A DNA stretch of 64,000 nt, taken from positions 14,906,734 through 14,970,733 of the forward strand of contig NC_089738.1 in NCBI RefSeq assembly GCF_035083965.1. Direction: 5' to 3'. A program made the translations under genes and the position numbers. The first letter of the stretch is position 1; each line of letters opens with the position of its first letter. Source of the DNA: Branchiostoma lanceolatum. Taxonomy: Eukaryota; Chordata; Leptocardii; Amphioxiformes; Branchiostomatidae. Below are positions 21,901-27,900 of this stretch, in pieces. The notes under the pieces are model-generated. The model was given only the letters and a program-made list of their open reading frames with translations, made no database searches and was not told the origin of the DNA.

Positions 21901-24900
21901 GCACATTAACTTTGCAGGTAGCCAAACAAACATGGTGCTTTACAACACCTGGATAACTCTTTAGTTTTCTAACCAAAACAGCAGGTGTTCAGACCACCAA
22001 GTCAATCAATAGCATATCATCTGCTTTCATGAATATGTTGTGATCAAGATACAAAACCTTTGGCACACCAAGTTTGTAGGTAGATTAACAACCTTACAAC
22101 ACCAATGCAAGTTTTCTAACCCAAACAGCTGCTGCTCAACTCGCGACATTACACTGAAACATAGACTCACCCTCAGAGGGTTCTCATTCAGGTACGGCGG
22201 CTCCCCTTCCACCATCTCTATAGCCATGATGCCCAGGGACCAGATGTCCACCTTGGGTCCGTACTGTTTCCGCGTCACCACCTCCGGCGCCATCCAGTAC
22301 GGGGTTCCCACCATGGTGGAGCGCTTGCTCTGCTCAGGGGTGATCTGGGCGCAGAACCCAAAGTCAGCTGCAAAAAATACCAGCAGTGAAGTTAGTCTGT
22401 AAATAGTTTCATCAGGTTGGTGAGTCACTGAATAAAAAGACTCTTTGTACACAACCAAGGCGTTTTGGTGACCATCTGACACCTTCCTCAAGGCATTGCA
22501 CCGCAGCTATAGCTGTCGCTATATACATGTAGTTGTGAATAAGACACTTGGTTATGTGCAAAGTCTTTTTAATCAGCTTAGTGAGGTACATACTATTTCT
22601 GTTATGGTTGATTGTTTGCACACTGAACAAAAACTGTTCCTTTTTATTTGATTCTTTTGTGTTGTTTTTCATTTTTCGTCTGTGATTGGATGCAATTATA
22701 TCAGTGTTAATACACACTGCTTTCCTATTATGGCATCTCATGTCTATGCCAAAGTAAAGTCTTGATTTTTCCCTTGAAATATTGAGAGGAATCAAAATTA
22801 AAACTGTATTACCCAATTGACAACAAAAAAAGGCAATCAGAATTTGTTTTGAAATTCAAACATCAAGAGAAGGAACAACTTTTGTCAAATACACCATAAC
22901 AGTATGATTTATTTTGACATCCATAATGTAGCAAAAATCAGTTTTCCAGTAGCAACTTGACAGTGTGCATTAACAGTCACCACAATACAGCTTTCTACAT
23001 TCTGAGTGCATTCTCACATCAATAGATGAAACACATCTTAGAAAGCACCAAATGGTGAAATGTGCAAACAGTACATCAAAGATGGACAGAATACATCTCC
23101 AAGAGGCACTTCAACAACCACAAACAAGACAAGAAGCCATGCAAGTCCCAATGTTTTACAACAAAAATCATTTCCAATGAGCTCAAAGCCTTTCCACATG
23201 ACATGTCGCTGCAACCGTACATGTCAGACTTTCATTTGCAAATGGAAAGTGCGGAACTGGGCACTAACCGACACCTTGGCGCAGGTGAGGGAACTCTGTC
23301 TGGGGAAAGTCTGTTACAGAAGAAGACCAGAAACAGGTCATCATGGACTTTAGGACTTATTTTGTAGGAACACTGATCATTTCATCAATTTCATGGACTA
23401 AGCATTCTTGCCTTGTTTGTGCTCTTGTTTGCCTCTACTACTTAGGAATGACTGTCAACAATGATATGAACAACAATCAGCATGCCGGTAACCTGAATGT
23501 GATCATGAAAGTGTACACAACAGTGAACATCACATGAAAAGCACAGACTGCATTGCTTGACCAAGCATGACTTACTTTGAAACTTACACTGTTCCAAACA
23601 GACTCAGCTACAGCTTCTGTTTATCTCCCTGTGTGTGAAGTTTTTCTCCATAGATTCTGGATGCAGGGGACATTTCTGAACCACTACTCACATTTTTGTT
23701 TGTCACATATCAGAGGTGACTGACGATTTTCTTCAAAAAAAGGCCTAAGCGTCAAGTTGACAATATGTAAAAATTCCATTACTTGCTATTAAGAAAAAGG
23801 TTTGAAGGTTTTATTCCAACAGGTACAAACAATAGAATGATACAGGGTGCCAATCAAAATAAGCAATTAAACCAATAAGAGTTGGAGTGAATTCAGGTCC
23901 GTCAAAGTTTTGTATTACAACGTTTTTGTTTCGCAAATTTTGAGGTAGGCAGGGCTATGGTATCTGTTCATTTTGAGAAGATACCATGACCCAACAGGAC
24001 TAAAACTATCATTCCACACACAAAGAATCCAAGAGCGACAACTGAGTTGTTCAGGCAGGTGACATGCCTCTTGAAAGTGACATCAAAAGAGTGACAAACA
24101 CATGACGATGTCAGGGTGTGCTACGGAGGTTAGTACGACAGATCTGCAGGCCGACAAGACGGGTGGAGTTCTACTGTTGCCATGGCAACACTCATGCCAC
24201 CACCTAGCGTGAGGATGACCATCTGTGTAGGGGTCCTACATCTGGACTGTTGTATGAGGCCTGTTTAGTCTCTAAACATAACGTAAAATCTTAACTGTCT
24301 TTTCCTATCTAAAATTGTTCCAATTGATGAGCTCAACACAACTCAAATGTACTTCTTATAGTACAAGGAACTATGCCAAATTTCCAATGACAGATCCACC
24401 AAATACATGTAGAAGATGCAAAATAGCAGAATTTCTACTTTAATTTTTTTTGTAGCAAGGCACAAATTTTATGAAAACTGGTTAAAACATGAGCTAATTC
24501 TTAGTTGGGGTACATTTCAAAAATAATGTTCCTCTCACACTCTCTTGGACTCTACACATGACCTCATTCCAACAGTCCAGACAAGCACCCCCCCTAGCAG
24601 GCCACAGACACCCCCCTGGGCTGTCTCTACTCACTGAGCTTGACTGAGCCGTCCATGCCCAGCAGAATGTTGTCCGACTTGATGTCTCTGTGAATCACCT
24701 GGTTGGCATGGAGAAACTCCAGGGCTTGCAACACCTGGAGGTGGCAAGGTACGAGAGTCACCTTTAACCTTTGCCCCGACCCTTCACCCCAGCACCTTTC
24801 CTGGATGCTCCCATACTGTTGCCTGTTCTGTGATTCACGTTCCATTTTATATGGGGACCAAAGGAAAAATTTATGGCTGTTGTTGGCAAATGTGCAGATG

Positions 24901-27900
24901 TTGGCACTTGGTGCACCAAATCTGTGTGCTTTTGACAGATTAGCCAAAGAGGCTCAGTGGGCATCACTCCTCCATCAGGGAAGGTTGTCTAGAGTGCCTT
25001 TCCCAAGGGAACAGCTTTGGGGCATGGCGAGTATCGAACCCAGGACCTATTGGTTCTGAGCCCAACGCTCTGGCAGCCAACCGACAGCCATGGGGACAAC
25101 GTGGCACATTATGAGGGCAACAAGGGAAGGTGCTGCACCACACTTTGACCTCGGACTTACTGAGTTTGACATTGCCGTCCATTCCGAGCAAGACGTTGTC
25201 GCTCTTAATGTCCCTGTGAATAACACCACTGCCATGCAGGAATTGGAGGGCTTGCAGGCACTGTACGGACGGAACATGGAACAGCCACAAACATGGAGAC
25301 AGCGTTAGTTCTCAGTTGAGAAGAGAGCATTGTGTACTCCACACACCGGTAATCAAATGCGCCAAAAATAGTTACTCAAGCAACTGCATGGATAAAATTT
25401 GGAAACAGTCAGACGTTTCAGACAGCATCTGCTATCTTTCATCAGTGACTAAGGAGAGATCTGGCAGAACCAGGTTTTAAACCAAAACTCTGAATAGATA
25501 TGTTAATGAAGTGAAGACAATTTCAGATTGTTCAATAGAATAGTAAGTCAAAACAAGGTAATCAAAATGGTCGCTTGGCTTTTGAAATATTTCGGTTGGT
25601 ACCACTCTTCAACGGAGGTGGTACAAAGTAGAAAATATGATGTATCAAAATCATGGTATTTGTTAAGCAGATCAATGGCTACATTGGGAATATTACGAAC
25701 CAAAGTTTTAAACCAAAGAGTACTGTAACTGTTACAGTAACTGTTCCTCTTTTTAAGTTGACAGTAAGAGCGAGGTCTCTGTGCCATTGTTAACACATAA
25801 TATCAAAATATATCTACACAACATGGTAGGGTGAGAACTATATAGTCTTCTACATTCCCACTTCTAAAAAGACATTTTCAAACTCTCATTTTTAAATGAC
25901 AACCTTTTTAAAGGACATTGAGTGTAAACAAAAGAAACAGATCTTGGAAAAACTGTTTTCGGTAAGTATCTGAGTTAATATCCCATACAATTTGGTGCCA
26001 GTTTGTTCAGTCAATGTTTGAAAAGTAGGCATAATTTGTCTAGAACCATTTTTTTCATATTGTACATATCTAACAGGTTTCTTCAATGTCAATTTTCTGA
26101 ATGACACACAGGGTTGTCTCCAGGACCCCTCCCTCTGTCCCTGGGATTTTTTCTTGGGATGGAAAAAAATTTCCCTCCATCCATACGAAAAACTGAACTT
26201 CACGACAGAACATTTATGAAAAACGTATTTTTGTAACCTTACAATGACAGATTTAACAACGAAAAGTGGCTCCCAAACAATGAGTGGGACAGAGAAAGAT
26301 AGTGCTTTGTACCTAAACCCGTGTTCAGGTTCAGGTCCGGATTTAGATCCAGAGGTTCAGGTTCAGGTCCAGACCTGAACCCATGACATATGTGTGCTAA
26401 AAAGATTTTTTTCCTGTTACATGTAAAATTGCATAATGGCATATATTTTACATGCAAGTTGAAAACCATATGATTATGTGAAATTATATAGTCAGCAGTA
26501 AACTCAAAAGGTCAGTTTTACAACACAAAATAGCAATGTTTCCATATTTTTCCAGTGCAAATTTCACATTCTAAGGATTAGGTTAAAGATGGTGTAAAAC
26601 AAAAAGGAGAGTATAAGCGAGAAATTTTCTTTTCAAGTCCGGACTTGTTTTCAGTTTTTTTTTGGACTTGAACCTTAACGTTAGGTCCAGTCCGGATCAG
26701 GTCCGGGGTTTAGGTACACAGCACTAGAGAAAGATTTAAAGCTGGAGACAGCCCTGATGACAGAGCTGAACTGTGGCACGTTACCTCTCTACACACGGCG
26801 GCGATCTGTCCCTCGTCCATACAGGTCTCCGTGACGACGTCCGTCAGCGATCCTCCGGCCAGGTACTCCATCACTACCCACAATTCCTCTCCAACCAGGT
26901 AGCTGTAACAAGAACGGAATAATTGACTTATGATACCTGGCCTATGTCGCCATAACATGAACAGCCTCCATCATAAAAGGTGAAGTATACAACAGGACCA
27001 ACGTTTCATATCAAATTAAAATGTAACACATGTGGTATGACAGCACTCTTGCCCGCTGTATGCTACATTTAAATCCCTAAATCCTTGACTAGAACTGTGT
27101 TAAAGGAAGGGAATGCATTAAACTTAACCATTTAGCGAGTGATAGTTACATCACAATGTTGTTTTCAAACATACAATATGAAGCTGCTACTTTTGGAATT
27201 TTTTTGCTTCATCTCTGTTTTCTATTTCATTTAACGATTGCAAAACACTAGGATTTAAAAAAAACTGGAGGACAAGGCAGTAGCCACACAAGACTTAAAT
27301 CTATGGAGTAAAACCGTTGACCTATACAACCAAGTTGAAGAAGGATCTAAGGTCTAAGGTAAGGTTCTATTCCAATGGAAAGGTAACAATGCCCCCACCT
27401 GTCCAGGTAGTTGACTATGTTGGGGTTCCTGTTCTCCCTCATGACCAGGATCTCATTGATGATGAGCTCCTTCTTGGGCTGCTGGGACAGGTTCATCTGC
27501 TTGATGGCCACCTGCGGGAGGGGGGCAGTAGGTCATGTCAGGTCAAGGAGAGGAGAGCATACGTGAACATGCACATTTCACAATGCCACCTTCTTTGATA
27601 AGGTAAAAGAAAGTTTGCATAATTTCTTGGACAAAATTTCCCTGAAATTTTTGTGTTAAATTTACCTCTTTGTTGTACTGGGAAGATTACAAAATTAATC
27701 TATGAATGTGCTCCATATCCACACATGAATACACTTGTCAAATGAATAAGAGGACTTGATGGTGAATTGTGCACTTATGTATTCACAGGCAGATACAGCC
27801 TAAAAAGTATCCGCAAACCCTTACCTCCTGTCCTGTAGCAGTCTCAATGGCAGTGTACACTGTTCCTGACGCACTGTTAAAGAGAATTACGACATACTTG

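Follow-up and report, generated by a model that had tools for sequence, protein, structure and literature searches.

Does one PAK kinase gene encode the surroundings of its catalytic loop in two forms, and is exactly one of them used in each transcript? We addressed this question in a 64-kb stretch of Branchiostoma lanceolatum DNA (hereafter the window, meaning the whole stretch that was analyzed), in which two similar exons, A and B, lie side by side on the minus strand. The evidence presented below argues that A and B probably represent an ancient tandem exon duplication within one group I PAK gene that has been kept as a mutually exclusive pair.

The locus encodes a group I PAK

Its sequence marks the gene as a group I PAK, as a preliminary description of this DNA had proposed, and this identity is supported by the p21-binding part, the autoinhibitory segment and the kinase domain. 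The PBD (CRIB) matched PF00786 with 95.1 bits, and the autoinhibitory segment that follows it (35474-35325) matched PAK1 98-146 at 68%, a comparison of sequence only. A 127-residue kinase segment containing exon B scored 269 bits against human PAK1 and 195 against human PAK4, with 268 for PAK3 and 261 for PAK2 (best chain of each), and by these bit scores the Ste20-type kinase domain is nearer to PAK1-3 than to PAK4-6. Read along the minus strand, the gene encodes PBD, autoinhibitory exon, proline-rich linker and whole kinase domain, with the following exons around A and B:

35315..38820, minus strand: N-terminal exons, with the start codon at 38820 (exon to 38646), 37025-36925, and 35474-35315 with PBD and autoinhibitory segment
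33494..33659, minus strand: linker exon ending DEEILEKLR, phase 0 to 1
28300..28363, minus strand: exon N1, start of the kinase domain (with N2)
27825..27873, minus strand: exon N2, start of the kinase domain (with N1)
27399..27511, minus strand: exon N3, VAIK and helix C
26785..26902, minus strand: exon N4, upstream of A and B; hinge and helix D, ending CRE
22171..22367, minus strand: exon F, downstream of A and B; DFG, activation segment and APE
21529..21666, minus strand: exon G, C-lobe

In the gene model the splice from 35315 to an acidic linker exon near 34535 is out of phase, and an exon may be missing between the two; the kinase part is unaffected.

Two adjacent exons encode the region of the catalytic loop

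The exon pair occupies the interval between N4 and F as follows:

25161..25260, minus strand: exon A, upstream of B, the GSG variant; 100 nt, phase 0 to 1; encodes helix E, the catalytic loop and strands 7-8
24735..25160, minus strand: A-B intron, 426 nt
24635..24734, minus strand: exon B, downstream of A, the ANQ variant; 100 nt, phase 0 to 1

The coordinates, borders and counts given in the preliminary description for two adjacent 100-nt exons of phase 0 to 1 were all exact: A and B share 26 of 33 residues, and HRDIKSDN is intact in both. Both exons are bordered by AG and GT and are equal in length and phase. Exon A has the acceptor ..tccgtacag, the donor gtaagt and a branch-like CTAAC motif at -45, and the introns N4-A, A-B and B-F measure 1524, 426 and 2267 nt. 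At the nucleotide level 70 of the 100 positions are identical, with 8, 6 and 16 mismatches at codon positions 1, 2 and 3. Exon B shares 31/33 residues with human PAK1 and exon A 27/33, and a tblastn search found no third copy in the 64-kb window.

Highly polymorphic animals can yield assembly errors, or two alleles set in tandem, that mimic such a duplication. We reject an artefact of this kind, which has hardly any probability left, since the exons are only 70/100 nt alike and the three introns around them are without mutual similarity (blastn, E 1e-4).

A and B are thus neighboring homologous exons with the same length, the same phase and matching splice borders, and this pattern, together with sequence similarity, is what WebScipio uses to predict mutually exclusive exons (PMC3228551, as reported there). 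Their relative BLOSUM62 score is 0.79-0.83, against a default WebScipio cut-off of 15% (PMC3228551). According to the same source, 16,180 exons of the fly X are annotated as non-exclusive, and 90 of these, located in 6 of 1705 genes, show such features (PMC3228551).

The reading frame stays open with exactly one copy

Translation of spliced models bore out the earlier claim that joining or skipping both copies breaks the frame. Inclusion of A alone or of B alone rejoined the PAK frame, which was then open into either of the two last exons described below. When A and B were joined, a stop appeared directly after the B-F junction, as the first complete codon of F, with two later junctions remaining; when neither was included, a stop fell within F, ~105 nt 5' of the F-G junction, and later junctions remained here as well. 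An open product was therefore obtained from exactly one copy, as in a cluster of mutually exclusive exons. Nonsense-mediated decay follows a 50-nt rule, and since later junctions lie beyond the premature stop in both aberrant forms, their decay is expected. Transcripts carrying both copies or neither would then be cleared by this pathway. Of 629 validated human clusters of mutually exclusive exons, 377 have exons whose length is no multiple of three, and reads joining the exons were found for 83 of these 377 (PMC5740500, as reported there).

The donors of both copies score as weak and no dedicated enforcing device is seen

We scored splice sites with a crude weight matrix. The donors of A and B scored 1.5 and 1.4, compared to 4.8 to 6.5 for N1, N2, N3, F and G, 2.6 for H1 (one of the last exons), 2.4 for N4 and 0.5 for the linker exon, and they ranked 10th and 11th among the 315 GT positions in 26784-22368, where the N4 donor ranked 7th. 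A GT inside exon B (24699) scored 4.5, more than B's own donor. The acceptor of B scored 4.7 and was 3rd among 244 AG positions; that of A scored 1.6, outside the best 12 of the 244, and an AG inside exon A (25213) reached 3.5, more than A's own acceptor. By this matrix, the description of both exons as having good splice sites is overstated: the two donors and the acceptor of A are weak, the acceptor of B is strong, and each exon contains one decoy that scores higher than a site of its own. The low acceptor score of A and the two decoys count slightly against exclusive use of A and B.

None of the known devices that enforce exclusive splicing, be they structural, steric or based on U12 introns, was seen at A and B. 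The fold of the A-B intron was ordinary (z -1.07; 12 of 100 shuffles folded as well), and its best 30-nt self-complementarity, an inverted repeat, was reached by 3 of 40 shuffles; enforcement by RNA structure inside this intron is therefore unsupported, both measures being unremarkable. A mismatch between U2- and U12-type introns was rejected, as the donors gtaacg, gtaagt and gtgagt are of the common type, judged by donor sequence. Steric block, which we took to need less than 50 nt between donor and branch point, is an unlikely device given a 426-nt A-B intron with room for a branch point; no branch-like yTnAy motif was present within 60 nt of B's acceptor, which leaves some probability to a distant branch point. 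Among 35 tests of regulator motifs (seven motifs in five regions), the lowest P was 0.02, for G-runs after B, uncorrected, and for the MBNL-type motif YGCY, both the A-B intron and the region downstream of B gave P 0.08-0.09, likewise uncorrected.

Weak competing sites together with decay of wrong products offer the simplest account of how one copy is picked. The two exons, each with a weak donor, would compete for inclusion, and cell-type splicing factors would govern which of them a given transcript receives.

Both copies appear to have been selected as protein

Of the 30 nucleotide differences 16 are at third positions, and divergence was estimated at dN 0.21 and dS 2.6 (NG86) or at dN 0.27 and dS 7.3 (ML). 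In neutral simulations, 20,000 runs from each copy, no run retained at least 26 identities without a stop: 30 random substitutions left a mean of 15-16 identical residues and a maximum of 23 or 24, and HRDIKSDN was retained in only 15 and 20 of 20,000 runs for the two starting copies. The simulation is crude, with a two-to-one transition bias and one branch, but its outcome is far from the observed value. Because of the third-position excess and the absence of any neutral run as conserved, both copies look old and long under selection at the protein level.

These data bear on two further explanations of exon A. In the first, B is constitutive and A is an old, rarely used copy that acts mainly as a poison exon, lowering PAK output through decay; the stop directly after the B-F junction of the joined form, with two junctions beyond it, would suit this role, as would A's weaker acceptor score and more diverged protein. 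However, a poison exon requires no protein constraint, whereas A retains 26/33 residues and the whole catalytic motif, with most changes at third positions, a degree of conservation that 0 of 20,000 neutral runs matched, and transcripts with A only would stay fully in frame. We therefore consider this explanation improbable. In the second, which we consider more improbable still, A is a functionless, decaying remnant of the duplication: its acceptor score is low and an internal AG scores higher, but its frame, both splice borders and a branch-like CTAAC motif are intact, and the third-position bias persists despite large silent divergence.

The retention of A and B as a mutually exclusive pair is thus favored: that exclusive use, as put forward in the preliminary description, is upheld insofar as the frame requires one copy and both copies are selected, but it remains a prediction. 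We regard the pair as a strong prediction, from genomic sequence, of an exon switch.

The substitutions surround an invariant catalytic loop

The exon switch had been described as rewriting the catalytic loop, and this claim did not hold: HRDIKSDN is identical in A and B, and all seven changes surround the loop. In PAK1 numbering, and with the residue of A first, these are C/V373, Q/E378, G/A382, S/N383, G/Q384, V/I395 and N/S402, positions that kinase structures place in helix E, the turn between helix E and strand 6, and the turn between strands 7 and 8. Human PAK1 and PAK4 differ at 10 of the 33 positions, and six of the seven changes fall among these (hypergeometric P 0.0012). A resembles PAK1 at position 373, where B resembles PAK4; at position 384 the resemblance is the other way round. 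Both isoforms matched PF00069 over the whole profile (A, 254.4 bits; B, 259.2 bits), and VAIK, HRD, DFG and APE motifs were present in the translations of both.

Since six of the seven positions also differ between PAK1 and PAK4 and the loop is invariant, the substitutions look like tuning at tolerant positions around the active site rather than remodeling of it, and an effect on stability or docking is to be expected rather than altered chemistry. Both proteins would be active kinases that differ at helix E and at the helix E-strand 6 and strand 7-8 turns, with B presumably the canonical and A the derived form, and tuning by the switch most likely concerns stability, the docking of partners or the rate of turnover rather than catalysis itself.

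The last exon is duplicated as well

A second duplication, new relative to the earlier observation on this gene, was found at its 3' end:

20355..20437, minus strand: last-exon copy H1; coding 20437-20360 plus stop; a donor-like gtaagc lies 2 nt past the stop
18700..18956, minus strand: last-exon copy H2; coding 18956-18879 plus stop, the 3' end at 18700 being arbitrary

H1 and H2 both extend exon G in frame and are identical at 21/26 residues and 58/78 nt, with 12 of their 20 differences at third positions. Their NG86 dN is 0.13 and dS 1.4, and none of 20,000 neutral runs was as conserved. On the minus strand from 21600 to 16000 there is a single AATAAA, at 19010, and ATTAAA occurs at 17097 and 16548; because the AATAAA lies between the two copies, the H1 ending could serve as an alternative terminal exon. 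Combined with the choice between A and B, two last exons make four kinase-domain isoforms possible.

A linker-type exon was also observed at 30547-30392 (minus strand). It ends LEEMLERLR and resembles the end of the linker exon at 33659-33494 (DEEILEKLR), the two having 28 of their last 46 nt in common. From its first acceptor (30547) it is 156 nt long with phase 1 to 1, and from its second (30542) it has phase 0 to 1. Since the first acceptor gives 156 nt and phase 1 to 1, we regard the exon at 30547-30392 as a possible cassette exon and do not count the two linker exons as an exclusive pair. Just 5' of it lies gccATGG, which could give an alternative start without the PBD.

A broader reading, which we offer tentatively and hold with less than even confidence, is that one invertebrate PAK gene yields combinatorial catalytic domains, two catalytic-loop-region exons by two last exons and perhaps the extra linker exon, so that splicing would do the job of the vertebrate paralogs PAK1, PAK2 and PAK3, with the A/B choice swapping a non-catalytic face of the C-lobe where PAK paralogs diverged.

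Other features of the window

A short, partly palindromic repeat adjoins one copy of each duplicated exon, A and H2: 25348-25460 (~90 nt 5' of A) and 19034-19206 (~80 nt 5' of H2) are 80.5% alike when aligned on the same strand (113 columns) and 90% alike on the opposite strand (91 columns). The tRNA-like look of the A-B intron was not borne out, as no tRNA was found in the window (ARAGORN, bacterial setting), and a search of the window at E 1e-4 gave no second copy of the intron.

A 560-residue ORF at 15873-14191 (minus strand), which by its motifs looks like a carboxylesterase/cholinesterase, has a second near-copy in two pieces, 10914-9799 and 4596-3925. The ORFs 545-898 and 11536-11904 are also paired. 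Because ORFs occur there in pairs, the first 16 kb look like a tandem segmental duplication of ~10-11 kb. A tandem array at 7242-9281, made of ~111 to 126-nt units with a 237-nt higher period and 8.4 copies, separates the two pieces of this second copy of the esterase. No Rfam family reached its gathering score in the window, and plasmid and viral-contig searches gave no matches; a genome-contig search returned 15 loci, all titled bacterial or archaeal and 31-58% identical, which have no bearing on the exon pair.

Comparison with known exon switches

In JNK, which belongs to another kinase family, the swapped C-lobe stretch lies beyond the activation segment, not at helix E to strand 8 as in PAK. 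The two are alike in having mutually exclusive exons within the C-lobe of a Ser/Thr kinase domain (PMC8586503). The exons of JNK (MAPK8/9/10) are thought to tune the enzyme, the alternative pair is normally the sixth exon, and JNK splicing is reported to be under Nova in amphioxus as well (PMC8586503). The Nova motif was not in excess in the PAK A/B regions tested.

FYN likewise uses tandem duplicated exons one at a time to tune a kinase (FynB/FynT), but its exons encode the SH2-kinase linker and the N-terminal kinase part with the ATP site, whereas the PAK pair encodes the catalytic-loop region (PMC9741552). Human mutually exclusive exons of the frame-shift class resemble A and B in that their length is not divisible by three and joint inclusion breaks the frame; unlike the PAK pair, which is known from the genome, they are validated by RNA-seq (PMC5740500). 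Exons 3 and Ab of U2AF1 are also duplicated exons used as alternatives, but in a splicing factor gene and with experimental work on their repression (PMC5224494). An exon-switching study describes, as summarized there, nine events touching catalytic-site residues, whereas A and B leave HRDIKSDN unchanged (PMC7954323). Among the titles and abstract beginnings of the matches listed from the open-access literature, none presented such an exon pair in a PAK, which is weak evidence of novelty.

If used as predicted, A and B would constitute a natural experiment, two selected surrounds of a catalytic loop with the regulatory domains unchanged, so that the part played by helix E and the following turn in the activity, docking or stability of PAK could be tested cleanly. 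If true, it would also be a case of exon duplication in place of gene duplication. Mutually exclusive duplicated exons, including those of kinases, are already well described, so that the pair is of a known kind and the catalytic-loop exon of a PAK would be a new place for it; PAK would thereby join JNK and FYN among the kinases with a splice-swapped kinase domain.
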